From positions 1 through 22,665 of the IMG/VR virus record IMGVR_UViG_3300030098_002945: DNA of 22,665 nt; one strand, 5' to 3'. Below, piece by piece: positions 1,722 to 13,893 of this stretch. Numbering within the stretch: the first letter of the stretch is position 1; every line of letters begins with the position of its first letter. The notes below the pieces were generated by a model. That model was not told the DNA's origin and did not search any database. It saw nothing but the letters and a program-made list of their open reading frames with translations. Source of the stretch: a virus. Position numbers and translations under genes: made by a program.

Positions 1722-1965
1722 TATGTCTTTCGCTTACTTAATGGAACTATGGTTTGCAGTTCATCAAGGAGAAACAGATAAATATAATTCTATTTATAAA
1801 AACCTTGATAAATATAGTGTTCCTTTTTCAATTCAAAATAAAGTATCTTCTAATGCAAGTGAAAGCAGAAGCAAGAAATCTATTGACACTTTAGAGGTAA
1901 AAGATAGAATAAAAACAATTGTTAATAACTTTGTTAATATCTTTGGAATAATAAATGTAAAATAA
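1675..1965 (+). CDS. Hypothetical protein with operator-like repeats in its 3' end
   Basis: 96 residues, unrecognised. The first half is helical and aromatic (YLMELWFAVHQGE), followed by a Ser/Lys-rich linker and a C-terminal hydrophobic helix-like stretch. The start at 1675 has the usual AACTATG context; 1699 is an alternative, because the segment beginning there is the one duplicated upstream at 1612. The last codons carry two tandem boxes (GTTAATAAC, GTTAATATC), and the stop codon is immediately followed by the -33 element of a promoter. The 3' end therefore doubles as regulatory DNA. Confidence 0.68.
   Translation: MNYLKIIQMEKTYVKDMSFAYLMELWFAVHQGETDKYNSIYKNLDKYSVPFSIQNKVSSNASESRSKKSIDTLEVKDRIKTIVNNFVNIFGIINVK
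1921..1941 (+). promoter_or_regulatory. Tandem GTTAATAAC-type operator pair 1
   Basis: GTTAATAAC at 1921-1929 and GTTAATATC at 1933-1941, repeat period 12 bp. GTTAATAAC is palindromic except for the central base. The pair sits 47 bp before the -7 element of the promoter at 1966-1996 and inside the upstream gene's 3' end. Matching pairs occur at 3311-3331 (plus strand) and 13412-13437 (minus strand). Confidence 0.6.
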
Positions 1966-1996
1966 TTTGACATTAACAAGAAAAGCAGTATATTTG
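1966..1996 (+). promoter_or_regulatory. Bacteroidota-type promoter TTTG-N19-TATATTTG
   Basis: TTTG at 1966-1969, a 19-bp spacer and TATATTTG at 1989-1996: an exact fit to the known Bacteroidota sigma-A consensus (TTTG-N19-21-TAnnTTTG). Transcription would begin near 2003 and read through a leader of about 190 bases into the gene at 2191. This is the best promoter match in the window. Confidence 0.8.
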
Positions 1997-1999
1997 TAT

Positions 2000-2190
2000 A
2001 AAGAGTATTAACCTTCTGGGTATGATAATAAATACAGAAGTAAAACAACAAGAATTATCTGAAAGAAAAACAAAATAAAATAAAGAAACATTAATGTTAG
2101 TGTCCACTTGTGAAACAAAGAAGGTAGGGATAAAAAGACAACAATATGCTAACCAAGTCCTTACAAAGACACTTTAAAAACTAAATAATT
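2000..2190 (+). promoter_or_regulatory. Untranslated leader with possible leader peptide and RNA fold
   Basis: About 190 bases between the promoter and the next clear gene. It holds a possible 18-residue frame at 2022-2078 (MIINTEVKQQELSERKTK) of doubtful reality. It also holds a segment from 2094 to 2173 beginning ATGTTAGTG. There, AGTGTC (2099-2104) can pair with GACACT (2168-2173), and GTTAG (2096-2100) is complementary to CTAAC (2149-2153). The same 9-mer ATGTTAGTG starts the stem at 3402. Confidence 0.45.
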
Positions 2191-2385
2191 ATGAAAAATA
2201 GACAAGAACAAATAGATGAATTTGTAGAATCAGTAAACATATCTCAAGTATTAGACAGTGCTTGTAGTGGGGCAATAGATGAGATCTTTAGACAATTAGA
2301 AAGAGAGGGTTGTCCTAAAGAAATCTTACAAGAAGTCAAAGATGAGGTATTTGTAAATAGAATAATAATAGATAATGAATGGTAG
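2191..2385 (+). CDS. Small acidic hypothetical protein
   Basis: 64 residues, unrecognised, predicted largely helical and acidic (EQIDEFVESVNISQVLD, then RQLEREGCPKEILQEVKDEVF). No membrane or zinc motif is visible. The start has the AATAATTATG context. It is the first clear gene after the promoter at 1966-1996 and its long leader. Confidence 0.7.
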   Translation: MKNRQEQIDEFVESVNISQVLDSACSGAIDEIFRQLEREGCPKEILQEVKDEVFVNRIIIDNEW

Positions 2386-2555
2386 AGTGTATAAATGAGA
2401 TATAACTATCCCTAATACAAATCTACTATTCAGAGAGAGTATTGAGAGAGATATTTAAAAAGTCTCTTTTTGAATAATCTCCTAAATAAAAACGCTGGGC
2501 AAGGTACAAGTAATTTTTGACAATGTCAAGTAGTGTTAATAAAAAAAATAAAATT
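2386..2555 (+). promoter_or_regulatory. Intergenic segment with inverted repeats, possible weak terminator
   Basis: 170 bases without a convincing gene. AGAGA (2447-2451) pairs with TCTCT (2463-2467) and is followed by TTTT; flanking ATTCA (2428-2432) pairs with TGAAT (2471-2475). The duplicated GAGAGAG stretch (2433-2451) offers alternative partners for TCTCT. This is the only hairpin in the early region followed by T residues, so a weak terminator or attenuator is possible. The rest is unremarkable. Confidence 0.35.
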
Positions 2556-2843
2556 ATGAGCAAAATATATATAGATAATTCAAAATTTATGGAGTACATA
2601 GATGAATTAGCAACACAAATAACAGAGATAAATTTTGGTGCAGAAACATACAGAGAACTTAAAAGTGATTTAGATAACGATATTAGAATGATTTTTACAG
2701 ATGAGGCACAAGATTATTATAATGAGATGTATGATGAATTTGAAACACTAACTAATAATCTGTTAGGCGTGTATAGCAATACTGAATTAGATAATTTAGA
2801 GGATATTGCAAAGAGTTATAGAGAATTAAAATTAAAGAAATAA
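2556..2843 (+). CDS. Small acidic hypothetical protein
   Basis: 95 residues from the ATG at 2556, chosen over the upstream ATG at 2517 because it carries the AAAATTATG context seen at neighbouring starts. The protein is acidic and probably all-helical (MEYIDELATQITEINF; a DEAQDYYNEMYDEFE stretch rich in Asp, Glu and Tyr). I recognise no family. The stop is 4 bases before the next small gene, suggesting one transcript. Confidence 0.7.
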   Translation: MSKIYIDNSKFMEYIDELATQITEINFGAETYRELKSDLDNDIRMIFTDEAQDYYNEMYDEFETLTNNLLGVYSNTELDNLEDIAKSYRELKLKK

Positions 2844-2847
2844 AGTT

Positions 2848-2988
2848 ATGGATAAGAAAGAAATTATAGAATGGTTAGATGAAACTGCATTTTATGTAGA
2901 GCAAGTAGTAGGATCTGATAGTTTAGAGGATCATCATCATAAAATGTTTAAAGCAATAGATAAAGCAATAGAATTATTAAATAAATAA
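2848..2988 (+). CDS. 46-residue acidic peptide
   Basis: ATG at 2848 with AAAGTTATG context, stop at 2986-2988. The product begins MDKKEIIEWLDETAFYVEQ, has a His-His-His run and ends in a Lys/Ala amphipathic helix (MFKAIDKAIELLNK). The spacing to both neighbours (4 bases each side), the same start context and similar composition argue that it is real despite its size. Function unknown. Confidence 0.62.
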   Translation: MDKKEIIEWLDETAFYVEQVVGSDSLEDHHHKMFKAIDKAIELLNK

Positions 2989-2992
2989 AATT

Positions 2993-3124
2993 ATGAATCA
3001 AGAAACACAAGCAGAACTATTTAAAGTGCTTTACAATTTAGAAGTTAAGTACGAGTTTGATGAAACTGAAATAGGTAGATCGTTAGGTAAATTAATTAAT
3101 AAATTACAAAAAGAATTACTATGA
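2993..3124 (+). CDS. 43-residue hypothetical peptide
   Basis: ATG at 2993 with AAAATTATG context. The product starts MNQETQAELFKVLYNLEVKY and ends in a Leu/Lys helix. Its stop overlaps the next start in an ATGA arrangement at 3121-3124, typical of translational coupling, which supports a genuine gene. No recognised family. Confidence 0.62.
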   Translation: MNQETQAELFKVLYNLEVKYEFDETEIGRSLGKLINKLQKELL

Positions 3125-3315
3125 AAAAAAGAAACGACTTAGATTATGCAAACTCTCAGCCAAACGAGAATGAATTAACAATAAAAAGTTCAACAAACAC
3201 AGTGTTGGGTAAACAATTAGCATGGTTTAATAACTTTGTTGATTATATCTATGAATTAGATAGCAATCTATATAATGAAGCGTGTGAATATGCAGATGAA
3301 CTTGAAGATTGTTAA
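3121..3315 (+). CDS. Small acidic hypothetical protein
   Basis: 64 residues; starts in the ATGA overlap with the preceding peptide. A polar N-terminal third (KKRNDLDYANSQPNENE) is followed by an aromatic and acidic second half (YIYELDSNLYNEACEYADE). It ends in DC just as the first GTTAATAAC box begins, so the stop codon lies within the operator-like repeat. Function unknown. Confidence 0.65.
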   Translation: MKKRNDLDYANSQPNENELTIKSSTNTVLGKQLAWFNNFVDYIYELDSNLYNEACEYADELEDC

Positions 3316-3331
3316 TAACATTGTTAATAAC
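3311..3331 (+). promoter_or_regulatory. Tandem GTTAATAAC operator pair 2
   Basis: Two exact copies of ATTGTTAATAAC run head to tail at 3308-3331, giving GTTAATAAC boxes at 3311-3319 and 3323-3331 with a 12-bp period. The pair ends 37 bp before the -7 element of the following promoter. The first box contains the stop codon of the upstream gene. Confidence 0.65.
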
Positions 3332-3345
3332 TATTGTCAAAATAG

Positions 3346-3376
3346 TTTGCAATTAACGAAAAAATAATTACCTTTA
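3346..3376 (+). promoter_or_regulatory. Bacteroidota-type promoter TTTG-N19-TACCTTTA
   Basis: TTTG at 3346-3349, a 19-bp spacer and TACCTTTA at 3369-3376: one mismatch (final A for G) to the Bacteroidota consensus. Transcription would begin near 3383, some 20 bases before a strong stem-loop. The placement below an operator-like pair mirrors the promoter at 1966. Confidence 0.65.
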
Positions 3377-3400
3377 CAATGAATTAAATTTTTCATATTT

Positions 3401-3466
3401 GATGTTAGTGGAGTGTTTGCGATAAAGCAATTTTATAATCTAACTCATTGGCACTCCACTATCATC
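3401..3466 (+). ncRNA. Strong leader stem-loop, possible regulatory RNA
   Basis: GATGTTAGTGGAGTG (3401-3415) and CACTCCACTATCATC (3452-3466) pair over 15 positions with one mismatch. The 36-base apical region contains a small hairpin, TTGC (3417-3420) with GCAA (3427-3430). No T-tract follows (ATCTTTTAACAAGG is the closest). It lies between a promoter and the gene at 3513 and shares ATGTTAGTG plus a downstream CTAAC with the leader at 2094. It could be a cis-regulatory leader or a free small RNA. Confidence 0.5.
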
Positions 3467-3512
3467 TTTTAACAAGGAAACTGAAACATTAACTAAACAA
3501 AGTCTGAAACTG

Positions 3513-3671
3513 ATGGATAAAGATTTAGAAAAATTAAGAAAAGAGTGGGGTATTGAAAAAATAATATCACCATTTATAACCAAAAAAGAATTAGATCTAT
3601 TTTGGAAGAAAAGACAAGAGATAGAAGAATTAGAATTAAAATTAAAAAAATTAAAGAATGGAAAAGAATAA
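3513..3671 (+). CDS. 52-residue charged helical protein
   Basis: ATG at 3513, stop at 3669-3671. The product begins MDKDLEKLRKEWGIEKI and its C-terminal half is a Glu/Leu/Lys heptad-like helix (KRQEIEELELKLKKLKN), probably a short coiled coil. It overlaps the next gene by 14 bases. It is the first gene after the 3346 promoter and the structured leader. Function unknown. Confidence 0.6.
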   Translation: MDKDLEKLRKEWGIEKIISPFITKKELDLFWKKRQEIEELELKLKKLKNGKE

Positions 3672-3885
3672 CGCATATCAAGATATAGTAAGTAGAATAG
3701 ATTTCTACATGAAAAACCCACATCTAAACCCTTTGGATAAAATTTCTCCAATAGATAGAGAAAGAGTAATAAATGAGATACAAAAGATAAACGACAAGGG
3801 TAGAAACAATATAAGAGAGTTAGCAAATCTAACTGATAATGAATTGTCAGAAAGATTAGAGGAATTAATTAAATACACAAAATAA
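3658..3885 (+). CDS. Small hypothetical protein
   Basis: 75 residues. It overlaps the end of the preceding gene, suggesting translational coupling. The sequence is polar and helical (YQDIVSRIDFYMKNPHLNP, then RVINEIQKIN, then LTDNELSERLEELIKY). No membrane, zinc or catalytic motif is apparent. Unrecognised; probably soluble. Confidence 0.65.
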   Translation: MEKNNAYQDIVSRIDFYMKNPHLNPLDKISPIDRERVINEIQKINDKGRNNIRELANLTDNELSERLEELIKYTK

Positions 3886-3893
3886 ATAAAATT

Positions 3894-4034
3894 ATGATGA
3901 AGTGGTATTATTTAAACATGACTGAACCATACCAAGATCTTGCAGACAAATCAGAATGTGCGTTCTGTGGAGAAGTATTAACTGAGTATAAATTTTGTTC
4001 TGATGATTGTGCGAAAGCATATTGGAACGATTAA
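3894..4034 (+). CDS. 46-residue Cys4 zinc-binding protein
   Basis: ATG at 3894 with AAAATTATG context, stop at 4032-4034. The second half reads CAFCGEVLTEYKFCSDDCAK, a C-x2-C ... C-x4-C set that would bind one zinc in a zinc-ribbon or treble-clef knuckle. The pattern FCSDDC followed by an aromatic pair resembles small zinc-ribbon proteins found in phages and archaea, but I cannot assign a family. The spacing and start context match its neighbours. A nucleic-acid or host-protein binding role is possible but unproven. Confidence 0.7.
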   Translation: MMKWYYLNMTEPYQDLADKSECAFCGEVLTEYKFCSDDCAKAYWND

Positions 4035-4040
4035 TAACCA

Positions 4041-4110
4041 ATATAAAGGGGGTGGAAAAGAGTTGACACTTTTCTTAAATGTGCTGTCTGCGAAACAGCC
4101 CCCCTTATAT
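4041..4110 (+). ncRNA. Three-way-junction-like RNA element
   Basis: An outer stem, ATATAAAGGGGG (4041-4052) with CCCCCCTTATAT (4099-4110), pairs at 11 of 12 positions. Inside are two hairpins: GAAAAG (4055-4060) with CTTTTC (4069-4074), and GCTGT (4083-4087) with ACAGC (4095-4099), sharing one base with the outer stem. The next gene starts at 4128 after an A/T-rich spacer with no T-tract. Candidate regulatory or processing RNA structure. Confidence 0.55.
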
Positions 4111-4127
4111 TTTAATAAATAAACATT

Positions 4128-4304
4128 ATGGAAAAATGGCAAAGTAATAATTTAGAATCATTAATTGAGTTAGTGGATAAAACCATAAACTTAATTGAGG
4201 AAAAAAATTTAGAAAGTGATTTTGATAAAGAAATTGTAATGTTGGAAAGATTGGCAACAAGACTAGTCCAGCTAAATGAAAATGAAAATTATAGTAGACA
4301 TTAA
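4128..4304 (+). CDS. 58-residue helical acidic protein
   Basis: ATG at 4128 (AACATTATG context), stop at 4302-4304. It is almost entirely predicted helix with regular Leu/Ile spacing (LESLIELVDKTINLIEEKN, then IVMLERLATRLVQLNENEN), so it probably forms a helical hairpin or short coiled coil. It follows the structured RNA segment directly. No family recognised. Confidence 0.65.
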   Translation: MEKWQSNNLESLIELVDKTINLIEEKNLESDFDKEIVMLERLATRLVQLNENENYSRH

Positions 4305-4323
4305 AATAAAAAAGAATAAAATT

Positions 4324-4578
4324 ATGAAACAACTACCAGAAGATATTATAGCGATTAATGATAAGATCGCAGATGCAAAAGAATTGTTAAGGGAGAATGG
4401 ATATTACATATACTCTATGTACCATATTGAAGATGTACAATCTTATTATGAGTGTACTGATTCAGAAGCAATGGATGTGTTAGATCAAGCATTAGATAAT
4501 GATGGAACTGCAAATCAAGTATGGGAAAGCATAAGATACTTTGCTGAAGACATGGGACTTAAAGAAAAAGAGGATTAG
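4324..4578 (+). CDS. Acidic hypothetical protein
   Basis: 84 residues from the ATG at 4324 (AAAATTATG context); the in-frame ATG at 4276 would add a Lys/Ile-rich tail and overlap the previous gene, so it is less likely. The protein has a helical start (EDIIAINDKIADAKELLREN), an aromatic middle (YYIYSMYHIED) and an acidic second half with repeated helices. In form it resembles small phage accessory proteins, but I recognise no family. The next gene begins 2 bases after its stop. Confidence 0.7.
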   Translation: MKQLPEDIIAINDKIADAKELLRENGYYIYSMYHIEDVQSYYECTDSEAMDVLDQALDNDGTANQVWESIRYFAEDMGLKEKED

Positions 4579-4580
4579 TT

Positions 4581-4817
4581 ATGAAAAAAATATCAATTAC
4601 TATGTGTTGGATCTTAACTATAATTATACTAATAATGGTTAATGGCACAATAAAAACATTTAACGAAACAATTAAAAACGTAGAGGATAAAACTCAAGAT
4701 ATGATGATAACATCTCTAAATATAGAGATAGTGGAACTAAAGACAGAGATGATGGATATTGGTTGGAAATTAGACTCTATGGTATTAAAATATGATTTTA
4801 ACTATAAAATGGATTAA
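4581..4817 (+). CDS. Small membrane protein with cytoplasmic-type coiled coil
   Basis: 78 residues. The N-terminal hydrophobic segment (about residues 8-23, MCWILTIIILIMVNG) is a membrane anchor or uncleaved signal. The remainder is a charged helix (IKTFNETIKNVEDKTQD and onward) suited to a coiled coil. It is followed 2 bases later by another single-span peptide, so the pair may act together at the inner membrane, for example as a spanin-like, superinfection-exclusion or holin-associated unit; no function is shown by the sequence. Confidence 0.68.
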   Translation: MKKISITMCWILTIIILIMVNGTIKTFNETIKNVEDKTQDMMITSLNIEIVELKTEMMDIGWKLDSMVLKYDFNYKMD

Positions 4818-4819
4818 TT

Positions 4820-4954
4820 ATGAAACAATACTGGCAAGACTACTGGTTGGCGAACATAGGATGTGTTCCTGATGGATTAGATTTAATAATAGTTATGGGA
4901 ATAATAATCATAACATCAACAATAACAATTAAAGTAAATAATAAAATAAAATGA
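4820..4954 (+). CDS. 44-residue single-pass membrane peptide
   Basis: ATG at 4820, stop at 4952-4954 overlapping the next start (ATGA). A Trp/Tyr-rich N-terminus (MKQYWQDYWLANIGC) leads to one hydrophobic span (LDLIIVMGIIIITSTITI) and a basic tail. Together with the preceding membrane peptide it forms a two-gene set just ahead of the replication block. Function unknown. Confidence 0.6.
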   Translation: MKQYWQDYWLANIGCVPDGLDLIIVMGIIIITSTITIKVNNKIK

Positions 4955-5430
4955 AAATAATGGAAATACTAGAAAAGAATATAATAAATATAGTATCTGA
5001 AGTTTGTAATGTTCCTGAAGATAAAATAATAAGAAACAGAACTGCGACAAGACACGCAAACGTAGTTATAGCAAGGCAGGTGTTGGTTAATTTACTATAT
5101 AGAAATTTTAACTACACTAACCACAACTTGAGAGATATATTAGGATATAAAAACCACGCATCTATTGTTCATGCAAGAGGTATGCATGACATAGACTATA
5201 AAACAAACATCATGTATAGAAATTTCTATAATAAATCAATGGATCATCTAGGACTATATGTTAATAGTGAAGACATTGAAGCATCTAGAAATATGGATAT
5301 GAAAAAAAAGATAGAAGAACAAGAAAAAACCATAGGAAGATATAAAGATCTATGGATGAATGAAAAATTAGAGAAAGAAAGAATACATGGATTGTTGATA
5401 AATTTTAAGAAAAAATACATGCTAAAGTAA
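4951..5430 (+). CDS. DnaA domain IV-like DNA-binding protein with coiled coil
   Basis: 159 residues. Residues about 15-80 resemble the C-terminal DNA-binding domain of DnaA: IARQVLVNLL (40-49) corresponds to the family's ARQ helix, and GYKNHASIVHARG (65-77) to the DnaA-box-recognising signature GGRDHSTVLHA. No AAA+ ATPase domain is present; instead residues about 113-150 form a Lys/Glu-rich coiled coil. A DnaA-type HTH without ATPase at the head of a replication module could mark a phage origin, compete with host DnaA, or recruit the helicase loader. The fold call is good, the role inferred. Confidence 0.75.
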   Translation: MKIMEILEKNIINIVSEVCNVPEDKIIRNRTATRHANVVIARQVLVNLLYRNFNYTNHNLRDILGYKNHASIVHARGMHDIDYKTNIMYRNFYNKSMDHLGLYVNSEDIEASRNMDMKKKIEEQEKTIGRYKDLWMNEKLEKERIHGLLINFKKKYMLK

Positions 5431-5452
5431 GCATATTGTAAAGAAAGTTTAA

Positions 5453-5460
5453 TATATTTG
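5453..5460 (+). promoter_or_regulatory. Possible promoter -7 element TATATTTG
   Basis: TATATTTG lies 26 bases before the next start codon in the only short gap (55 bases) of the replication block. No TTTG is found 19 bases upstream; the nearest TTG is at 5436-5438, with only 14 bases between. No GTTAATAAC box is present. A weak or differently regulated promoter is possible. Confidence 0.35.
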
Positions 5461-5485
5461 TAAAAACAATTTAATTTAATTAATT

Positions 5486-6004
5486 ATGACTAAACTAAAA
5501 ACTATAAACATTAAAGGGAAAGAGTACGTTGAAGTTAACGAAAGACTCAAATACTTTAGAGAGAATCATCCTGAACATTCACTAGTAACAGAAATTATAC
5601 AATGTACAGAAGAACATTGTGTTATAAAAGCTACTATCGTATATGGTGGAGTTCCAATTGCAACAGGACATGCACACGAAGTTAGATCAGCTAGTTTTAT
5701 TAACAAAACATCCTTTGTCGAGGTTTGTGAAACGTCTGCGTGGGGTAGGGCATTAGCAAACTTTGGCATTGGAATAGATAGTCAGGTTGCTTCAGCACAT
5801 GAAGTTGCAAACGCAATAGCACAAACAGAGTTACCTAAAAAGAAACAAGCTAGTGGTAAAAAAAAATTAACAAGTAGTCAGTTTGATGCCATGATGAAAG
5901 CTATTAGAGATGGAGAATCTTTAGTTGTTAAACAAAGAATGGATAGCTACTCTATGACTGAGGATCAAAGAAAGTTATTAATGTTAGAAATAGAAAAGCA
6001 ATAA
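5486..6004 (+). CDS. Probable phage single-strand annealing/ssDNA-binding recombination protein
   Basis: 172 residues. The first 100 residues resemble a widespread phage family by the order KEYVEVNERLKYFRENHPEH, then IKATIVY, an IATGHAHE motif and finally CETSAWGRALANFGIGID. Such proteins normally sit next to exonucleases in phage recombination modules and are usually considered annealing or ssDNA-binding proteins of Rad52/Erf-like type. After residue 120 comes a Lys-rich linker and a C-terminal helical region. The exonuclease gene starts 1 base after the stop. The family resemblance is clear to me; the biochemical role rests mainly on context. Confidence 0.65.
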   Translation: MTKLKTINIKGKEYVEVNERLKYFRENHPEHSLVTEIIQCTEEHCVIKATIVYGGVPIATGHAHEVRSASFINKTSFVEVCETSAWGRALANFGIGIDSQVASAHEVANAIAQTELPKKKQASGKKKLTSSQFDAMMKAIRDGESLVVKQRMDSYSMTEDQRKLLMLEIEKQ

Positions 6005-6005
6005 T

Positions 6006-6770
6006 ATGGATTTCGCTAAATACATAAAAAATTTTGATAGTGATACTATTTATTATGGTGACAAGAATTTTATAACAAATTCTCAGCTAGGTAAATTAGC
6101 ACACTCACCAGCTAAATTAGAGCATTATAGAAAGTATGGGCAAGATGATACTAACGCTTTATTATTTGGTAGAGCCTTTCACCAAAATATACTAGAACCA
6201 AAGAAGTATAAGGATCAAGTTATATCTTATGATGGTGTTAGAAGGGGAAAGGCATGGGATGAATTTAAACTAAATAATGATGATAAAACTATCATAACAA
6301 AGGGGGAGGAGAAATCTTTACATAAAATGAGAGAAAAATTATTATCCATACCAAGAGTTAAAAATCTATTATCTAATGGACAAGCAGAGGTTGTTAATTG
6401 TTGGGAAGATCAAGATACTGGTGTTTATTGTAAGGGTAAGGCAGATTATGTAAAAGATGAGAATGGAAGAAAGATTATTGTAGACATCAAAACAACTCAA
6501 AGCCATGTTATGAATGAGTTTAGACGTTCATCTTTGAAATATGGGTATGATAGGCAGTCAGCATTTTATCTTGATGGGTTTGGTGCTGATGAGTTTTGGT
6601 TCATTGTTATAGAAAAAACAGAACCATTTGATGTTGGAATATATATGTCAAGCGAAAGTTTTATGGAAGTTGGAAGAACTAAATACAAAGAACTATTAAA
6701 CTTGTATGATACATATTTTATAAAACAAGACAGAGAAATTAATGACTATTACGTTGAATCAATACTTTAA
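6006..6770 (+). CDS. PD-(D/E)XK exonuclease, RecE/lambda-exonuclease-like (DUF3799 type)
   Basis: 254 residues. Motifs in order: ITNSQLGKLAHSPAKLEHY near the N-terminus; GRAFHQNILEP (55-65) with the conserved His59; KGKADY (143-148) with Asp147; and IVDIKTT (158-164) with catalytic-type Asp160 and Lys162. A YDRQSAFYLDG segment follows, as in RecE-like nucleases. These enzymes resect double-stranded ends 5' to 3' and hand the strand to an annealing protein, here encoded directly upstream. The length fits a stand-alone phage exonuclease, and the active-site residues look complete. Confidence 0.87.
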   Translation: MDFAKYIKNFDSDTIYYGDKNFITNSQLGKLAHSPAKLEHYRKYGQDDTNALLFGRAFHQNILEPKKYKDQVISYDGVRRGKAWDEFKLNNDDKTIITKGEEKSLHKMREKLLSIPRVKNLLSNGQAEVVNCWEDQDTGVYCKGKADYVKDENGRKIIVDIKTTQSHVMNEFRRSSLKYGYDRQSAFYLDGFGADEFWFIVIEKTEPFDVGIYMSSESFMEVGRTKYKELLNLYDTYFIKQDREINDYYVESIL

Positions 6771-6781
6771 AAACAATTACT

Positions 6782-6973
6782 ATGAAATTAAAAACAGAAC
6801 TTAGAGCAAGAAAAATATCTCAGCAAGAGATAGCAGACTACGTTGGTGTGTCTAGACCAACTATATCAAAGAGGTTAGAATCTCCTGATACGTTTAACGC
6901 ACAGGAAATTAGACTGATCTCTGAAATGATGAGTGTGGATGACACTTGGGCGTACAACAATTTATTTATATAA
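6782..6973 (+). CDS. Small helix-turn-helix regulator
   Basis: 63 residues, essentially one HTH domain of XRE/Cro type: SQQEIADYVGVSRPTISKRL (about 13-32) gives helix-turn-helix, then a helix ending in the wing-like C-terminus. There is no separate dimerisation domain. It is embedded in the replication block, unusual for a lysogeny repressor, so it more likely tunes phage transcription timing. It is the only clear sequence-specific regulator in the window besides the DnaA-like protein, and so the first candidate for binding the GTTAATAAC boxes (inference only). Confidence 0.8.
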   Translation: MKLKTELRARKISQQEIADYVGVSRPTISKRLESPDTFNAQEIRLISEMMSVDDTWAYNNLFI

Positions 6974-7002
6974 CTATTTACTAACTATTTAATTATTTTA
7001 TT

Positions 7003-7272
7003 ATGGAAAAGAAAGAAGCAATTTTTTGTGGAAATGGAAAAGAAGTTACCTTTAATGATGGTGGCTCAATTATAAACATGACTCTACACTTAGATAAGAT
7101 TGGAGAACACGTTTATACTTACGAGGGTAAGAAGTATGTTAACTTAACTATTGGTGCCAATAAAGATGGTGCTAATGAATATGGTAAAACACACTATGTT
7201 AAGATCAATGATTTTAAGCCTGAACCTCAAAAGGAGACAGCATCAGCAACAAAGGATGATTTACCATTTTAA
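7003..7272 (+). CDS. Probable ssDNA-binding protein with SSB-type C-terminal tip
   Basis: 89 residues. Strand-rich body (KEVTFNDGGSIINMTLHLD, then YEGKKYVNLTIGANKDG, then KTHYVKINDF) consistent with a minimal OB-like barrel, followed by a Lys/Glu/Ala linker ending in KDDLPF. Acidic tips ending in Pro-Phe (DDIPF/DDLPF) are the hallmark of bacterial and phage SSBs and recruit partner proteins. It lacks the typical length and signatures of host SSB, so it would be a divergent phage SSB. The location between recombination and helicase genes fits. Confidence 0.62.
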   Translation: MEKKEAIFCGNGKEVTFNDGGSIINMTLHLDKIGEHVYTYEGKKYVNLTIGANKDGANEYGKTHYVKINDFKPEPQKETASATKDDLPF

Positions 7273-7293
7273 TTTTTTATTTGTTCTTTATGG

Positions 7294-7315
7294 GGGGGTG
7301 TGTCATGGCATCCCC
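7294..7315 (+). promoter_or_regulatory. G-run/C-run stem-loop before the helicase loader gene
   Basis: GGGGGTG (7294-7300) pairs with CATCCCC (7309-7315), including one G-T (G-U in RNA) pair, around an 8-base loop. It belongs to the series of G-first, C-second hairpins of this genome; the next start codon is at 7339. No T-tract follows. Confidence 0.5.
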
Positions 7316-7338
7316 TATAATAACCATAACTTAATTAT

Positions 7339-9130: not shown

Positions 9131-9563
9131 GAAAGCAAAGGATATGGCTAGAGGTAAACGTGCTGAAAAGGAGTACGCTAAACTATATAAAAATGTATCT
9201 CTACCTACAGAAGAAGAGGATTGTAATGAACATTGGGATTTAAAAATAAATGAAATAAAGATAGACGTAAAAGCTATTAAAAAAAATGACGAGAATATAC
9301 ATTTTGTAGAATTTAAAAATGTATTAGGGAAGAAAGGCTGGTTGTATGGTGATGCAGATGGATTTGCTTTTGAAACTGAGGATTACTGGATTGAGGTAAA
9401 GAAAGAAGATTTACAAGAGATGGTTCACGACAAGTGTATAGATAAAGTAAAGGGTTGGGATTTTTACGAGTTAGCAACTAGGCCAGGGGCAAAAGATTTG
9501 TTTACAAAAGTAAAGACAATAGATTTGTGTTATATAGGAAAAATAAAAAACAAAAAACTATGA
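9108..9563 (+). CDS. Probable PD-(D/E)XK-type phage nuclease
   Basis: 151 residues from the ATG at 9108; an internal ATG at 9144 (MARGKRAEKEYAKLYK) is an equally plausible start and would remove the overlap with the helicase gene. The core runs DLKINEIKIDVKAIKK (a D...DVK arrangement), followed by IHFVEFKNVLGKKGWLYGDA and FETEDYWIEVKKEDL. This order recurs in a phage protein family that I regard as PD-(D/E)XK-like, perhaps a Holliday-junction or DNA-end nuclease. The placement after the helicase supports a DNA-processing role. The exact function is not certain. Confidence 0.6.
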   Translation: MRYKSLHKKAKDMARGKRAEKEYAKLYKNVSLPTEEEDCNEHWDLKINEIKIDVKAIKKNDENIHFVEFKNVLGKKGWLYGDADGFAFETEDYWIEVKKEDLQEMVHDKCIDKVKGWDFYELATRPGAKDLFTKVKTIDLCYIGKIKNKKL

Positions 9564-9838
9564 GTAAAAATAAAGATCCATTCCCAATAAGGCAATTAGT
9601 AGAAGAAATAGCATCAGAAAAAACCTTGTTTGCAGATGGACTTGATGACGCTATAATAGGGGTGGTTGAAAGGTCTGGTTTTAATGAAACGATTATACTA
9701 TATGATACAAATAAAATAATAGAGTTGTTAGAGGCTGATGGGATGAGTAATGAAGAGGCTACAGAGTATTTTCAATACAATATACTTGGATCATACATGG
9801 GAGAGGGAACACCAGCTTTTGCAACATTATTAAAATGA
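9560..9838 (+). CDS. Conserved phage protein of unknown function
   Basis: 92 residues from the ATG at 9560 (overlapping the previous stop); the ATG at 9527 is in frame but would overlap the nuclease gene by 37 bases. The pattern LDDAIIGVVERSGFNETIILYD, then IIELLEADGMSNEEATEYFQ and finally YMGEGTPAF, recurs in many tailed phages, often in replication regions, without known function. The stop overlaps the next start (ATGA). Confidence 0.75.
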   Translation: MSKNKDPFPIRQLVEEIASEKTLFADGLDDAIIGVVERSGFNETIILYDTNKIIELLEADGMSNEEATEYFQYNILGSYMGEGTPAFATLLK

Positions 9839-10098
9839 AAAAACAAATATGGCATATAGAAGTTGAGTATGAATGGAACACTTGGAGAATTGTTAAAGGG
9901 GTTAAGAAAAGTACTCAAAAAAAAAACAAGGGAACATTTGTGACATGTTCTATTGGTGACACTGTTGAAGAACTTAATAAAAGAAGTTATTTAATTTCGT
10001 GTATAAAAAAACAAATAAAATCTACTCAGGGTATTGATGTAAAAATCACTGGATGGAAATGGAGAGAAGAAATGGGAATGAGTAATGACGTTTACTAA
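9835..10098 (+). CDS. Hypothetical protein
   Basis: 87 residues, unrecognised. It is basic and Trp-rich (KQIWHIEVEYEWNTWRIVK), with alternating strands and a C-terminal GWKWREEMG motif. It starts in an ATGA overlap with the upstream gene, so it is translationally coupled to the replication block. The strand-rich, basic character would be compatible with nucleic-acid binding, but nothing diagnostic is visible. Confidence 0.7.
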   Translation: MKKQIWHIEVEYEWNTWRIVKGVKKSTQKKNKGTFVTCSIGDTVEELNKRSYLISCIKKQIKSTQGIDVKITGWKWREEMGMSNDVY

Positions 10099-10119
10099 GT
10101 ATTAATTAATATATATATT

Positions 10120-10368
10120 ATGTGTTATACAACAATTAAAATTCACGCAGAGCAATTAGCAGCAAAACTTGCTCAAAGAAAAGTTGAAAAAAAATGGGAG
10201 GCCTTAGGATGGTCTCCATATGTGGAAAACATACATGAGTATGTTGGTGCTAGGTACACAGAAAACGCAGAAAAAGATTATAAAAAGCACTACGATTATT
10301 TTATGGAAATAATATTGAGCAAAAAGCTTACAGAAAAGAAACTAGAGGAGAAGCCTTTAGCTGAGTAG
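10120..10368 (+). CDS. Hypothetical protein
   Basis: 82 residues, helical and Lys/Glu-rich, starting MCYTTIKIHAEQLAAKLAQ. The Met-Cys N-terminus recalls SRAP peptidases, where Cys2 is catalytic, but the protein is far too short and the downstream catalytic residues are not seen. A motif YVENIHEYVGARYTENAEKD lies in the middle. The start has an ATATTATG context. Function unknown. Confidence 0.68.
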   Translation: MCYTTIKIHAEQLAAKLAQRKVEKKWEALGWSPYVENIHEYVGARYTENAEKDYKKHYDYFMEIILSKKLTEKKLEEKPLAE

Positions 10369-10399
10369 TTAATTTAGTATTAATTTAATTTAATTTATT

Positions 10400-10819
10400 A
10401 TGAAGAAGATGATTTTTTTAGCGATCTTATTCCTGTCGTTACAGGGTATTTCGCAAATAAGGACAGGAGTTTATCAGTCAAGTGAGTCTATAGATTACGA
10501 GTGGTCAAATGGTGAGCAGACTGGAGATGTATATATTTATTCTGAACCAATGTTTATACATATATCAGAAACAGGATTCAGAGTTTATATGAATCAATGG
10601 GAAACAGGTGTGAGCTACCCATTTATATATATGGGCAAAGGCTCTGATGGCTACCATGTCTATGCAGTTCCATTTGGAGATAAACTTGAAATAAATGAAG
10701 ACGTTGCTGTTTTGTTTTATAATTTTAATAATACTACAGGATGGTACGACAGCTCTAGAGAATGGAGAGGCTTGGAATATATTTCAAATACTCCTATATT
10801 AGATTATGAAAAAGAATAA
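10400..10819 (+). CDS. Secreted protein with signal peptide, unknown function
   Basis: 139 residues. Residues 1-19 (MKKMIFLAILFLSLQGISQ) form a classical signal peptide, with likely cleavage after SQ, common in flavobacteria; there is no lipobox Cys. The mature part is strand-rich with many Tyr/Trp, like a small periplasmic beta protein. It sits in a phage DNA-metabolism region, 14 bases overlapping the next nuclease gene. Phage-borne exported proteins often alter the host envelope or block superinfection; here that is inference. No domain recognised. Confidence 0.75.
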   Translation: MKKMIFLAILFLSLQGISQIRTGVYQSSESIDYEWSNGEQTGDVYIYSEPMFIHISETGFRVYMNQWETGVSYPFIYMGKGSDGYHVYAVPFGDKLEINEDVAVLFYNFNNTTGWYDSSREWRGLEYISNTPILDYEKE

Positions 10820-11405
10820 AAAAGGTAGAGTAAAGAATGTTCAGTCCACCAAAATTGATGGAATAGAATTTAGGTCAAGACTGGAGGCTTTTACCTATGC
10901 TGAATTAAAAAAAGAAGGTATAAAATTTGATTATGAAAAAGAAAAATTTGTACTTTTGGATAAGCTTAAATACGAAGGAGTAAGCATAGAGAAAAGAAAA
11001 AAGAAGGGCAAGTTGGTTTTCGATCAAGCTTTGAGTAGTATTAGATCCACTACCTACTTGCCTGACTTTACTAACTTAAAGGATGGGTGGATAATAGAAG
11101 TAAAAGGATTGAAGTCTGATGTTTTTAACCTTAAATGGAAACTATTTAAACATTATCTTGTAAAAAACAATTTAAATTACGAACTTTACATGCCTGGAAG
11201 TAAAAAACAAATACTTCAATGTATTGATATGATTAAAGAGAAAATAAAAATATCAGAGGCAGACAAAAAGAGAATAGCTAAAATGGTTAGAAGAGATTCT
11301 GATATTGAAGCTAAAAACAATGGAATGGATCTTAGGTCTAAGCCATATAAAAATAAGAAAAAATATACACGCAAATCAAAACACAATGTTGCAAGGAATT
11401 TTTAA
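10806..11405 (+). CDS. PD-(D/E)XK endonuclease, T7 endonuclease I-like/DUF1064-like
   Basis: 199 residues. SRLEA (24-28, Glu27), YLPDF (84-88, Asp87) and IIEVKG (96-101, Glu98 and Lys100) give a complete E...D...ExK active site of the T7 endonuclease I/DUF1064 kind. FNLKWKLFKHYL follows, as usual in the family. Residues after about 150 form a basic Lys/Arg-rich tail likely to bind DNA. Such enzymes resolve branched DNA or cut phage recombination intermediates. It overlaps the upstream signal-peptide gene by 14 bases and the holin gene by 20. Confidence 0.8.
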   Translation: MKKNKKGRVKNVQSTKIDGIEFRSRLEAFTYAELKKEGIKFDYEKEKFVLLDKLKYEGVSIEKRKKKGKLVFDQALSSIRSTTYLPDFTNLKDGWIIEVKGLKSDVFNLKWKLFKHYLVKNNLNYELYMPGSKKQILQCIDMIKEKIKISEADKKRIAKMVRRDSDIEAKNNGMDLRSKPYKNKKKYTRKSKHNVARNF

Positions 11406-11790
11406 ATCACTTATTGGTAATGCATCAAACATTATTGATGAATGTGTAACAACTAAAGAAGAGAAGTTAGCTTTAAAAAACAAGATGAAAGAGATCTTGG
11501 TTAACGCAGAATCTAACGCACAAGAGCAGGTGACTAGAAGGTGGGAGGCTGACGCTAAAGCTGGATGGCTTCCAGCTAATATAAGACCACTAACATTAAT
11601 ATTCTTAACCTTCGTGTTTGTGGTAATATCAGTGTTTGATGGGAACCTTGGTGGATTTTCAATTTCACCAGCATATGTCCCAATTTATCAAACTTTGCTA
11701 CTTTGCGTGTACTCAGCGTACTTCGCTGGTCGTTCAATTGAGAAGGTAAAAATTAATAATAAAATTAAAGACAATGGAAAAAGAAATTAA
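11386..11790 (+). CDS. Holin of the 3TM phage family
   Basis: 134 residues from the ATG at 11386 (MLQGIFKSLIG); the in-frame ATG at 11305 would add 27 residues buried in the previous gene and is unlikely. A charged N-terminal helix carries the family-like RRWEADAKAGWLPANIRPL segment (51-69), followed by hydrophobic spans at about 69-85 and 97-115 and a basic tail. This matches the 3TM holin family (PF11351 type), which permeabilises the inner membrane at lysis. No endolysin lies directly beside it; the DUF5675 gene on the other strand is the nearest candidate. Confidence 0.8.
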   Translation: MLQGIFKSLIGNASNIIDECVTTKEEKLALKNKMKEILVNAESNAQEQVTRRWEADAKAGWLPANIRPLTLIFLTFVFVVISVFDGNLGGFSISPAYVPIYQTLLLCVYSAYFAGRSIEKVKINNKIKDNGKRN

Positions 11791-12121
11791 ATTAGAAGAA
11801 AAAGAAATAAAAGAAATCAGAGCAATAAGATCAGAAAACAGTAGAATGATGGTTGACTTTGGAAAAATAAAAATGGATTGCATATTGCTTAATTCTAGAT
11901 TATCAGAATTAGAGAAGATGGAGTCAGATATGGCAGCTAGACTTAAGGGAAACAGAAACAAAGAACAAAAGATTTCTGAAAAATTAAACAAGAAGTATGG
12001 AGTTGGTAGTGTAAACATAGAGAAAGGAACATTCACAAGACAGGGAGGTATCATTACAGAGGGAGAAACAGATATAGAGGTAACACTAGAGCCTGTAAAA
12101 GAAGAAGATGGGAAAAGCTAA
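11774..12121 (+). CDS. Coiled-coil protein of unknown function
   Basis: 115 residues. Residues 1-75 are a Lys/Glu-rich coiled coil (EKEIKLEEKEIKEIRAIRSE, LLNSRLSELEKME). The C-terminal part has a KYGVGSVNIEKGTF segment and ends acidic. Proteins of this layout (coiled coil plus YGxGxxxxxxGxF) are common in Bacteroidota phages next to holins, without known role; a lysis-associated or structural accessory function is possible. It overlaps the holin gene by 17 bases. Confidence 0.72.
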   Translation: MEKEIKLEEKEIKEIRAIRSENSRMMVDFGKIKMDCILLNSRLSELEKMESDMAARLKGNRNKEQKISEKLNKKYGVGSVNIEKGTFTRQGGIITEGETDIEVTLEPVKEEDGKS

Positions 12122-12254
12122 TGCAAGAAATAAAGCTAAGAGAGAGAAGCTTACAATGTTAAACATTCTTAGAAAGAGAATGAAGAGATCTAAGTTTAAA
12201 TCTAAGGTTGACGAAATACAGGGTAGAATAAATTCTATTAAATCTAAGCTCTAA
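12108..12254 (+). CDS. 48-residue basic peptide
   Basis: ATG at 12108, stop at 12252-12254. It overlaps the preceding gene by 14 bases. Very basic (KANARNKAKREKL, then ILRKRMKRSKFKSKVDEIQ), so probably nucleic-acid binding or ribosome-protein-like in charge. It is the last plus-strand gene; its stop overlaps the end of a minus-strand frame by 4 bases, leaving no room for a terminator between the convergent blocks. Confidence 0.6.
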   Translation: MGKANARNKAKREKLTMLNILRKRMKRSKFKSKVDEIQGRINSIKSKL

Positions 12255-12393
12255 TATTCTATAGTTACAAATACAACCATAAAGCCTAAGAATACCTGAA
12301 CTTCATAATAGTTACATACGTTGTCTGGCTCGTAATGTCTTATGCCAAATACTATGCCATTAGAAAACTGAAAACCAAAACCAATTCTTTTCA
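12251..12393 (-). pseudogene. Small phage protein frame with a one-base disruption near its start
   Basis: Read from the ATG at 12393 the frame stops after 13 codons. Shifting by one base after the second codon, at AAAA, opens an uninterrupted frame to the TAG at 12253-12251 with protein-like text (FSNGIVFGIRHYEP ... EVQVFLGFMVVF). The ATG with one more A would give MKKNWFWFQF followed by this segment, so a single A seems to be missing, by mutation, assembly error or programmed slippage. About 47 residues if restored. I recall similar small proteins in flavobacterial phages, but not their function. The position as last gene of the minus-strand operon fits. Confidence 0.5.
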
Positions 12394-12395
12394 TA

Positions 12396-12626
12396 TTACC
12401 ATTTGTCTTTAGGGCAAGTTGAGGTTTGCCATTTAGCTTTTACATCCATGTAGCAACCACAAACACCACATATATTATCTTTTTTCACAAAGTGAACACA
12501 AGTATCACATACCATAGCTCTCCTTAAATACTCTTCTTTAGATACGTTTTGTGCACGATTTAAAACGTGGTTTGTTGTGTCTCTTATTAAACTTTTTGCT
12601 TTATCTATAAAACTTGGTTTACTCAT
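12396..12626 (-). CDS. Cys-rich zinc-binding phage protein
   Basis: 76 residues. Cysteines at 40, 43, 53, 56, 58 and 71 (CDTC, CGVCGC, TSTCP) surround KAKWQ and the protein ends CPKDKW: a two-zinc-knuckle layout common in phage late regions. The N-terminal 35 residues are a basic helix. It overlaps the HNH gene upstream by 8 bases. It probably binds zinc as a structural or nucleic-acid-binding factor; the function is unknown. Confidence 0.75.
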   Translation of the reverse strand: MSKPSFIDKAKSLIRDTTNHVLNRAQNVSKEEYLRRAMVCDTCVHFVKKDNICGVCGCYMDVKAKWQTSTCPKDKW

Positions 12627-13014
12627 TTTTTCTTCCTTTTAATTCTTTTCTTTTCTTTCTATATTCAGCTCTAGCTTTTTTACACCCATCACATCTACAT
12701 CCTTTTCTGTAGGCTGTAACTGATGGACATGGCATACCATGTTTAACTCTAGCTGCACGATAATTACAACCAGCATGTGAAAACGCTATATTGTCTAGAT
12801 CAAAAAAAACCTCAGGTGGATTATCAGAATCTAACCAAGGTTTTTTATGTTCTATTGTAAAATTATCTATATCTACTATTTCTGTTGCACATTGGTAACA
12901 CCAATTAAATCCCAACTTCTTAGCAAAGCTAAATAAAATAGATTTTCTAAGTCTATGGGCAGCAGTTCCAGGATTCATTCCTAGCTGCTTTGTTTTTTTT
13001 TCTTTAATTGACAT
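12619..13014 (-). CDS. HNH-type endonuclease
   Basis: 131 residues. CYQC (39-42), FTIEHKKPW (His56), LDNIAFSHAGCN (Asn75, His80, Cys83) form an HNH domain with zinc-stabilising cysteines. A second Cys cluster, GCRCDGCKKA (105-114), and a Lys/Arg tail follow. Phage HNH proteins range from homing endonucleases to terminase-associated nucleases that assist packaging; the minus-strand location downstream of a virion-type gene makes the packaging-related option reasonable. The start overlaps the previous gene by 11 bases. Confidence 0.8.
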   Translation of the reverse strand: MSIKEKKTKQLGMNPGTAAHRLRKSILFSFAKKLGFNWCYQCATEIVDIDNFTIEHKKPWLDSDNPPEVFFDLDNIAFSHAGCNYRAARVKHGMPCPSVTAYRKGCRCDGCKKARAEYRKKRKELKGRKNE

Positions 13015-13285
13015 TACGTTTTACGTACTTTCTTTTTTTAGGGTAATTATGTCCAACACCTTTCTTTCTTCCTCCTTCCCCTTTTTTACCTCTATTTTTT
13101 TTAGCAGACACAACGCTTAGTTTATTTGAGTTTATACCCTCAGTATGATGAACTTCCTTTCCATCAAACTTAGAAACCTTTCCACCCTTTTCTAACTTAT
13201 ACCTATCTCTCTTTCTTTTTCTATTATTAGCTCTTTGCTTAGGGCTAGATTGAAACTTCTTATATTCGTCTTTATAATCTCTCAT
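13004..13285 (-). CDS. Small basic HNH-like protein
   Basis: 93 residues, very basic. FDGKEVHHTEG (40-50), then NKLSVVSAKKNRGKKG resembles the HNH pattern of phage endonucleases (D/E-V-x-H-x-D/E-G ... N ... V-V-S ... N-R), with His46/His47 and Asn64 in place. Zinc-binding cysteines are lacking. The N-terminal KFQSSPKQRANNRKR is a basic helix. It could be a compact nicking nuclease or a DNA-binding remnant. It is the first gene after the spacer with the minus-strand promoter candidate. Confidence 0.65.
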   Translation of the reverse strand: MRDYKDEYKKFQSSPKQRANNRKRKRDRYKLEKGGKVSKFDGKEVHHTEGINSNKLSVVSAKKNRGKKGEGGRKKGVGHNYPKKRKYVKRNVN

Positions 13286-13303
13286 ATTACTAATTAAAAG
13301 GAT

Positions 13304-13340
13304 GGGGGGCAGTTTAATACAGAATCAAACAAAACCCCCC
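13304..13340. promoter_or_regulatory. G6/C6 stem-loop in the spacer between minus-strand genes
   Basis: GGGGGG (13304-13309) and CCCCCC (13335-13340) form the outer stem, with GTTT (13312-13315) and AAAC (13327-13330) pairing inside. On the plus strand it is followed by AAAACTAAACATTATG, like the leaders of plus-strand genes. On the minus strand it lies in the leader of the HNH operon, so the functional strand is uncertain. Confidence 0.5.
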
Positions 13341-13353
13341 AAAACTAAACATT

Positions 13354-13392
13354 ATGAAACTTACTGTCAAATATAGTGAATTTATTTGTTAG
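13354..13392 (+). pseudogene. Vestigial plus-strand gene start
   Basis: ATG at 13354 with a CTAAACATTATG context reads MKLTVKYSEFIC and then stops at 13390-13392, touching the minus-strand DUF5675 stop. The hairpin-plus-start layout copies that of true plus-strand genes here, which suggests the 5' remnant of a gene lost on rearrangement. A chance match is possible. Confidence 0.3.
13368..13375 (-). promoter_or_regulatory. Minus-strand promoter -7 element TATATTTG
   Basis: TATATTTG read on the minus strand, identical to the -7 element at 1989. The -33 element is weak: the best TTG lies 22 bases upstream. A GTTAATAAC pair lies 36 bases upstream, compared with 37 at the 3346 promoter, which raises confidence. 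It would drive the HNH/zinc-protein operon. Confidence 0.55.
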
Positions 13393-13893
13393 TTAGGCAA
13401 TATCTTTGTAAGTTATTAACACCTCTTTGTTATTAACTAAGGCTTCTGCTATCCTAGGATATATTCTTTTATAAGCCTGTGTTGACTTACCTATAAAACC
13501 ATTTTCATTTATTTGATTGTTTTCTTGCGAGTCCCCCACGAGTAAGCATCCTGCAGTATGCTCATCAGTATTACCACAATGAATAAGGATGTACTCAAAG
13601 TTAGGTACGTCAGTAATATGAAGCATACCACGATGAATTTTAGGAAATCTTTTAGAATATTTTTGATGGTATCCACCTTCTTTTCTAAGTTTAATTTTAT
13701 ATGTCCCAGCAGGGATCCTTGTTTCTCCATATTTTTTTTCATCTCTATGTTCATCTTCTAATGTATAACACACAAAACTTCTTTTACATCTAAAACCTTC
13801 TCCATGTGGGTTTTCTGCAGAATCATCTACTATAAATAATATTCCAGAGGTTGAGTCTGGGCCACTTGATATTCTTAATACTTCTAATTTCAT
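13393..13893 (-). CDS. DUF5675 family protein, possible cell-wall-active lysis protein
   Basis: 166 residues. Recognised from FVCYTLEDEHRDEKKYGETR (40-59), the IPAGTY turn (60-65) and ILIHCGNTDEHTAGCLLVG (102-120), with His105, Asn108 and Cys116 as prominent conserved residues. This is the DUF5675 pattern found in phages and prophages. The H-G-N-T ... G-C arrangement recalls L,D-transpeptidase-like catalytic sites, and the family is often suspected to act on peptidoglycan, but activity is not established to my knowledge. With a holin on the opposite strand 1.6 kb away and no other lysin seen, it is the best endolysin candidate in the window. The giant gene ends 2 bases upstream. Confidence 0.82.
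   Translation of the reverse strand: MKLEVLRISSGPDSTSGILFIVDDSAENPHGEGFRCKRSFVCYTLEDEHRDEKKYGETRIPAGTYKIKLRKEGGYHQKYSKRFPKIHRGMLHITDVPNFEYILIHCGNTDEHTAGCLLVGDSQENNQINENGFIGKSTQAYKRIYPRIAEALVNNKEVLITYKDIA
13412..13437 (-). promoter_or_regulatory. Tandem GTTAATAAC operator pair 3
   Basis: Two exact GTTAATAAC boxes on the minus strand (13437-13429 and 13420-13412), with a 17-bp period instead of 12. They lie in the last codons of the DUF5675 gene, coding V-N-N and V-L-I-T, and 36 bp upstream of the TATATTTG element at 13375-13368. Confidence 0.6.

Follow-up and report, generated by a model that had tools for sequence, protein, structure and literature searches.

Three pairs of short boxes in a 22,665-nucleotide stretch of viral DNA (IMG/VR record IMGVR_UViG_3300030098_002945, positions 1 to 22,665; the window) stand at set distances from the core promoter, as in DnaA-regulated promoters. 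Sequence comparison suggests that the pairs are upstream activator sites for a DnaA-type protein, probably the DnaA of the host. The boxes, the promoters P1, P2 and P3 and the associated genes are located in the window as follows.

1920..1929, plus strand: P1 distal box, TGTTAATAAC (motif search)
1932..1941, plus strand: P1 proximal box, TGTTAATATC, at a 12-bp period (motif search)
1966..1969, plus strand: P1 -33 element, TTTG, 19 bp before the -7 element (sequence)
1989..1996, plus strand: P1 -7 element, TATATTTG, 47 bp after the tandem
2191..2385, plus strand: first ORF after P1, 64 aa
3310..3319, plus strand: P2 distal box, TGTTAATAAC, containing the stop codon of ORF 3121-3315 and invariant in the relatives L006 and L058
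3322..3331, plus strand: P2 proximal box, TGTTAATAAC (motif search, comparison with relatives)
3346..3349, plus strand: P2 -33 element, TTTG, 19 bp before the -7 element (sequence)
3369..3376, plus strand: P2 -7 element, TACCTTTA, 37 bp after the tandem
3513..3885, plus strand: small ORFs after P2
4951..5430, plus strand: DnaA domain-IV-like protein, 159 aa, with the helix GYKNHASIVHA and without an ATPase domain
6782..6973, plus strand: Cro/CI-type HTH protein, 63 aa
12396..13285, minus strand: leftward unit after P3, encoding a 93-aa protein (phrog_4590), an HNH endonuclease and a 76-aa ORF
13368..13375, minus strand: P3 -7 element, TATATTTG, 36 bp after the proximal box
13412..13421, minus strand: P3 proximal box, TGTTAATAAC, inside the 3' end of the upstream gene
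13429..13438, minus strand: P3 distal copy, AGTTAATAAC, at 17-bp spacing

An exact search for GTTAATAAC returned five copies in the window, at 1921, 3311 and 3323 on the plus strand and at 13412 and 13429 on the minus strand, with the variant GTTAATATC as the second copy at 1933 on the plus strand. This confirms the pairs described in an earlier sequence-only reading, which had seen no other exact copy. The near-identical contig IMGVR 3300030329_001120 (42,009 bp) contains the same five copies and no further one, and the reversed control motif is absent from it. The five copies compare with a mean of 0.43 (maximum 4) when the window is simulated 1000 times by a second-order Markov model; no simulated version contained two copies within 20 bp of each other. 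The proposed distances of 47, 37 and 36 bp between pair and -7 element are exact, and each pair indeed overlaps the 3' end of an ORF before it. The supposed palindrome around the central base did not hold up: the site is asymmetric, and its unit is the directional decamer TGTTRATAAC, including the leading T and a free fifth base, repeated head to tail. The full element reads TGTT(R)ATAAC-nn-TGTT(R)ATAAC with a period of 12 bp, which is the spacing in P1 and P2, while the P3 copies are 17 bp apart.

Promoters of the sigma-ABfr type in Bacteroidota consist of TTTG and TAnnTTTG elements (PMC6847099; F. psychrophilum transcription start map, PMC9723704). P1 has the full pattern with its 19-bp spacer, P2 has TACCTTTA as its -7 element, and P3 has a -7 element with no TTTG 19 bp before it. 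Conservation in relatives extends to the P2 boxes in L006 and L058, where the -7 elements are TAACTTTG and TATGTTTG and the ORF after the L058 promoter resembles ORF 3513-3671. It also extends to the P3 proximal box, which is kept in L376, L381 and L384 and reads TGTTGATAAC in L378, but not to the P3 distal copy, which is not conserved as a box in the relatives compared. Of the three pairs originally proposed, P1 and P2 share the 12-bp period found elsewhere and P3 is weaker. Neither the assignment of P3 to a late unit nor a coordination of early with late units is established; the leftward unit holds the 93-aa protein and the HNH endonuclease.

The same element recurs widely in other phages. 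Viral stretches with tandem TGTTAATAAC number 57 and those with tandem TGTTGATAAC 71, and shuffles of 24 carrier contigs yielded about zero tandems. Some matches of the viral scans are coding sequence (for example the 12-member L515 cluster and the L568 cluster) and were discounted. In about 15 unrelated Bacteroidota phage lineages, the tandem lies 37-40 or 46-48 bp before TAnnTTT(G/A). Across dereplicated viral sites, the same-strand distance to TAnnTTT(A/G) peaks at these two values, with no comparable peak on the upstream side of the tandem. The remark that 47 and 37 bp differ by about one helical turn is strongly supported, as the two preferred distances occur in unrelated phages. One 413-kb phage contig has 21 such promoters, with the -7 element at 37-39 bp. 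Of the repeat pairs, 58 are spaced by 12 bp and 5 by 11 bp, with few others; inverted pairs are almost absent, and the site is directional across 84 sites. A regulatory operator before several promoters is strongly supported; it is not restricted to this phage, since many Bacteroidota phages and a host gene family carry it. The window DNA had no match among cultured phages, and blastn with the short motif returned only noise (staphylococcal tail genes).

On the complementary strand the 9-mer reads TTATNAACA, which differs by a single base from the DnaA box TTATNCACA. The window boxes (TTATTAACA) depart from that consensus by one mismatch, at position 6, while the fifth base is free (A/G/C/T), matching the N of the DnaA box. 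In other phages, tandems of the canonical box TGTGNATAA lie 37-41 bp before TAnnTTTG, and mixed canonical/variant tandems take the same promoter position at 38-40 bp. Within one family of homologous promoters in other phages, G and T interchange at position 4 and any of the four letters may stand at position 5; the patterns searched allowed variation only at positions 4 and 5 and in the spacer. Also in favour of DnaA, Bacteroidia oriC-like clusters use TTATCCACA and contain tandem pairs of 11-12 bp. Several observations run counter to the DnaA reading. The canonical letter occurs in 0 of 84 sites of the TGTTRATAAC type (position 4 is never G), although the Bacteroidia oriC-like clusters use it. 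In phages of the TGTTRATAAC type, canonical TGTGNATAA is not enriched (109 seen versus 119 expected).

Bacteroidia chromosomes are almost devoid of the tandem, which is a further point against DnaA; Flavobacterium is the exception. There, 22 of the 200 genomes searched carry the strict arrangement, with 24 sites in all and 0 in the control, and nearly all of these sites precede one outer-membrane beta-barrel gene family, which is no obvious DnaA target. In one further Flavobacteriaceae genome, sites precede nrdD and ftsA; nrd genes are known targets of DnaA (PMC8203912). No box enrichment was found upstream of host dnaA genes, which is consistent with the location of oriC far from dnaA in Bacteroidetes (PMC4755523).

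The strongest alternative is that the binder is another Bacteroidota transcription factor, such as an OmpR/PhoB-type response regulator, and that the phages copy a strong host outer-membrane operator. Outer-membrane genes are classical targets of such regulators, which bind direct repeats just upstream of the promoter. The near restriction of host copies to the beta-barrel family would fit this, as would the directional repeats of fixed period adjoining the -33 region and the T at position 4, which is not the canonical DnaA letter. However, the direct-repeat period of the OmpR/PhoB-type family is usually 10-11 bp, whereas 12 bp prevails here and 11 bp accounts for 5 cases, canonical DnaA boxes and mixed pairs take the same place in other phages, and the free position 5 suits a DnaA box. 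On balance, we regard such a factor as unlikely.

The DnaA domain-IV-like protein of the phage itself was an early candidate for the regulator. It is a genuine DnaA domain-IV fold: the best solved structure is 1j1v (DnaA bound to its box; TM 0.80 of target), and the Bac_DnaA_C profile (PF08299) scores 29.8 bits against a cut-off of 31.5, with relatives at 31.6 and 32.6. The protein has 72 matches in the module set, and, among relatives in its phage clade, every locus that combines boxes with a -7 element belongs to the KNHAS helix group (9 of 22 loci versus 0 of 56; p = 3e-6, uncorrected for relatedness or locus length). A de novo search in relatives with other DnaA-like helices revealed no other recurring tandem operators. 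These points would suit a regulator dedicated to the three promoters of this phage, but only 5 of 50 tandem carriers have a Bac_DnaA_C match, the multi-site phages have none, and host genes bear the same operator without the phage genes. A dedicated role for this protein is thus improbable. A search for a regulator family common to all carrier phages was negative: the most widespread family is present in 6 of 15 lineages, and no evident regulator is among the most widespread ones. The host factor that the sequence-only reading had allowed for is now favoured: because the operator is common to phages without a DnaA-like protein and to host outer-membrane genes, host DnaA would be the most general binder.

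It is very unlikely that the tandems belong to a replication origin of the phage, with promoters that are incidental or serve origin transcription. DnaA boxes and head-to-tail pairs are features of origins, and TGTTAATAA arrays lie next to hemE in a SAR11 contig and at the ends of contigs in a Rikenella assembly; yet a phage may carry up to 21 copies, all of them at a single distance from a -7 element, the window has three separate pairs and no box cluster or single location, with no further pair in the 42-kb contig, and the same arrangement precedes ordinary host genes. Binding of GTTAATAAC as a palindrome by the Cro/CI-type HTH protein, the other candidate originally named, is hardly credible: the protein does belong to a family of DNA-binding repressors, but nothing links it to the boxes, the 84 sites are directional, the operator is common to phages and hosts unrelated to this protein, and repressor sites normally overlap the promoter.

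We then propose a model in which host DnaA acts at these promoters. Two head-to-tail DnaA-type boxes with a 12-bp period would form an activator site that keeps to one face of the helix and lies about 15 or 25 bp ahead of the -33 element of a primary-sigma (sigma-ABfr type) promoter. The DnaA-type protein may bind the pair cooperatively and aid RNA polymerase at the promoter, and we infer activation rather than repression. The phage DnaA domain-IV-like protein may share, replace or block the site. It is conceivable, if not quite probable, that this represents a phylum-wide class of Bacteroidota phage promoters switched on by host DnaA through a fixed-distance tandem, with canonical and C-to-A boxes used in different hosts. 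The same switch would drive the Flavobacterium outer-membrane family, and some phages would add a stand-alone DnaA DNA-binding domain for control. To our knowledge, next to nothing is known about how Bacteroidota phages control transcription. The fixed-geometry upstream element makes it possible to predict regulated promoters both in Flavobacterium and in uncultured phages, and points to a common host regulator that is directly testable. If this regulator is DnaA, phage gene expression would be coupled to host replication state, a link known from lambda that would here be far more widespread.

Several known systems bear on this proposal. The 4951-5430 protein resembles Bac_DnaA_C by profile and fold, but differs from Bacteroidia DnaA in having KNHAS for (K/R)DHAT, no ATPase domain and a long C-terminal helix. 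P1 and P2 resemble sigma-ABfr promoters (TTTG-19 bp-TAnnTTT(G/A)); the available text of PMC6847099 and PMC9723704 reports no upstream direct-repeat element. DnaA acts as a transcription factor at E. coli nrdAB, dnaA and gua (PMC8203912), and the resemblance lies in TTATN(C/A)ACA, the free fifth base and the head-to-tail pairs near promoters; the nrdD promoter of one flavobacterium even carries the same pair. The window boxes differ in having A instead of C at position 6, and that review describes no fixed -7 distance across many phages and mentions neither phages nor Bacteroidota. Host DnaA also stimulates transcription of phage lambda (Szalewska-Palasz et al. 1998, as cited in PMC3985674). 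If host DnaA binds here, the systems would be alike in that the host initiator stimulates phage transcription. As far as that citation goes, the effect in lambda is tied to origin activation, whereas the pairs described here precede ordinary promoters, many of them in each large-phage genome.

A both-strand search of the window located exact GTTAATAAC at five places and nowhere else, as the sequence-only reading had counted, and a recount returned its distances from the box pairs to the -7 element, TAnnTTT(G/A): 47, 37 and 36 bp for promoters P1, P2 and P3, respectively. In P1 and P2, TTTG precedes the -7 element by exactly 19 bp; P3 has no TTTG at this spacing. The features of the window are as follows.

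1-873, plus strand: ArdC N-terminal and zincin-like metallopeptidase (anti-restriction type), left end of the window
1921, plus strand: exact GTTAATAAC, P1
1933, plus strand: GTTAATATC, P1, from the both-strand search
3311 and 3323, plus strand: exact GTTAATAAC, P2
4951-5430, plus strand: DnaA-like protein
13412 and 13429, minus strand: exact GTTAATAAC, P3
13896-22613, minus strand: single open frame of 2905 aa, occupying the right part of the window

When the window was regenerated 1000 times with a second-order Markov model, GTTAATAAC occurred 0.43 times on average and no close pair arose. The 42,009-bp contig IMGVR 3300030329_001120 carries the same five copies and none besides, lacks the reversed control pattern, and encodes an identical DnaA-like protein.

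The tandem recurs in other viruses. Among 2.9 million viral contigs, TGTTAATAACnnTGTTAATAAC was present in 57 stretches and TGTTGATAACnnTGTTGATAAC in 71; in bacterial genomes totalling 257 Gb, the stricter TGTTAATAACTTTGTTAATAAC turned up just 16 times. Shuffling 24 carrier contigs, each taken over its whole sequence, gave an expectation of about zero tandems. The unit had been read as a palindrome, but the consensus of 84 sites from a tolerant collection, T-G-T-T-(A/G, rarely C/T)-A-T-A-A-C with a repeat period of 12 bp, is directional. Given this consensus, the spacing (12 bp in 58 pairs, 11 bp in five) and the near absence of inverted pairs, the apparent palindrome is one directional half of a head-to-tail repeat. 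With near-duplicates removed, TAnnTTT(A/G) lies 37-40 or 46-48 bp downstream on the same strand, so that the difference of one helical turn proposed for the window is general; the other side of the viral tandems shows no distance peak. One 413-kb contig alone holds 24 near-tandems, 21 of them with a -7 element at 37-39 bp.

Conservation before the same promoters in relatives was partial. All 20 box letters of P2 are kept in two relatives (L006 and L058) despite differing flanks, and the proximal box of P3 is kept in four, but these same four have lost the distal copy. Since the proximal box lies inside a gene, its conservation may be partly due to coding constraint. In a set of 80 loci found via the neighboring gene 5486-6004, plus close relatives, the DnaA-like protein had 72 matches. 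Boxes with a -7 element were confined to loci whose DnaA-like protein has the KNHAS recognition helix (9 of 22 versus 0 of 56 others); the p-value of 3e-6 is indicative only, because the loci are akin to one another and unequal in length.

The tandem is nearly missing from Bacteroidia genomes (sample of 296). Its strict promoter form is missing in 394 of 395 genomes, the sole positive being the center genome, picked for carrying it. Within Flavobacterium, the genus of the center genome, 22 of 200 genomes have this form (24 sites; control, 0). All inspected Flavobacterium loci except L454, an unclear case, place it directly upstream of a small outer-membrane beta-barrel gene, often divergent from aroQ, with the start codon about 25-30 bp past the end of the -7 element. 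A family-wide search added four genomes with one or two sites each; one of them, the Flavobacteriaceae genome G687, has the form before both ftsA and nrdD (L476, L478). Thus, the element is very probably read by a host-encoded factor, and the carrier phages very probably share a host promoter type. In two Bacteroidales genomes (L081, 4774-4795, plus strand; L087, 358-379, minus strand), the rpsL (S12) promoter has the same tandem upstream of its -7 element with a gap of about 11 bp, a placement resembling that of a repressor site.

The opposite strand of the 9-mer, TTATNAACA, is one base off the DnaA box TTATNCACA and has its free base in the same place. Because the window boxes miss the DnaA box at one position in a strict consensus test, we describe them as working like DnaA boxes, not as members. 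The canonical box is the one used in origin-like clusters of Bacteroidia, where tandem pairs are spaced 11-12 bp, and the DnaA proteins of this class carry the usual recognition helix, (K/R)DH(A/S)T. If DnaA is the binder, canonical boxes should be able to occupy the same promoter position, and in phages this is the case. In 33 viral stretches, TAnnTTTG follows a canonical tandem at a distance of 37-41 bp, and many of these stretches also have TTTG at -33; mixed tandems lie 39-40 bp away, counted from the 9-mer end (14 and 12 stretches, some coding). A homologous promoter family (L480, L488, L569, L576, L583, L585, L587, L589, L590, L591 and L593) alternates G and T at position 4 and takes any letter at position 5; its evidence is for exchange at these two positions alone, as the search patterns fixed the others. 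Against DnaA, phages of the window's type have the canonical letter at 0 of 84 sites and show no enrichment of canonical boxes. The two box types may track differences between host DnaA proteins; alternatively, weak boxes may be favored.

Dense box arrays were also seen elsewhere. In a Pelagibacterales MAG contig (L077, VHBV01000005.1, around 3365-3386, minus strand), eight TGTTAATAA/TTATTAACA boxes within less than 300 bp adjoin hemE, which adjoins oriC in alphaproteobacteria; this is likely a SAR11 origin with the same box variant. A Rikenella microfusus MAG has dense TGTTAATAA arrays in both orientations at two contig ends (L073 and L083, the latter adjoining a queA-like gene), possibly a chromosomal origin. 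Two Bacteroidia genomes (L365, L366) have conserved clusters that span 500 bp and comprise 13 DnaA-type boxes, for the most part TTATCCACA, with tandem pairs 227 bp apart; these are likely oriC.

The phage's own DnaA-like protein, an earlier candidate, falls slightly below the Pfam cut-off, its relatives above it. Both a profile search of solved structures, which identified DnaA domain IV, and a search with the predicted fold (pLDDT 83.5, TM 0.80 of target) gave as top match 1j1v, in which the E. coli domain is in complex with a DnaA box. A role of the phage protein as general binder is ruled out, because multi-site phages lack it and only 5 of 50 tandem carriers have a match to its family. 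The protein has no ATPase domain; at tandem sites it might act alongside host DnaA, take its place or keep it off. Stand-alone DnaA domain-IV proteins (window 4951-5430, relatives L374-L450) are one core component of a replication module that is widespread among Bacteroidota phages, and their recognition helices are of at least five types: KNHAS, KNHTS, KSHSS, RDHAT and KDRST.

In the reading that we favor, the tandem would act as an upstream activator site to which a DnaA-type protein binds; the pair would lie on one helix face, roughly 15 or 25 bp ahead of the -33 element, and might link these promoters to replication. The analysis shows the motif with its direction, period, distance, recurrence, host copies and exchange with canonical boxes; the binder, activation and the link to replication are inferred from these. 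The parts consulted of two flavobacterial promoter studies (PMC6847099, PMC9723704) describe no tandem upstream element. DnaA is an established transcription regulator in other bacteria, with nrd genes among its targets (PMC8203912), and host DnaA is cited as stimulating phage lambda transcription (in PMC3985674).
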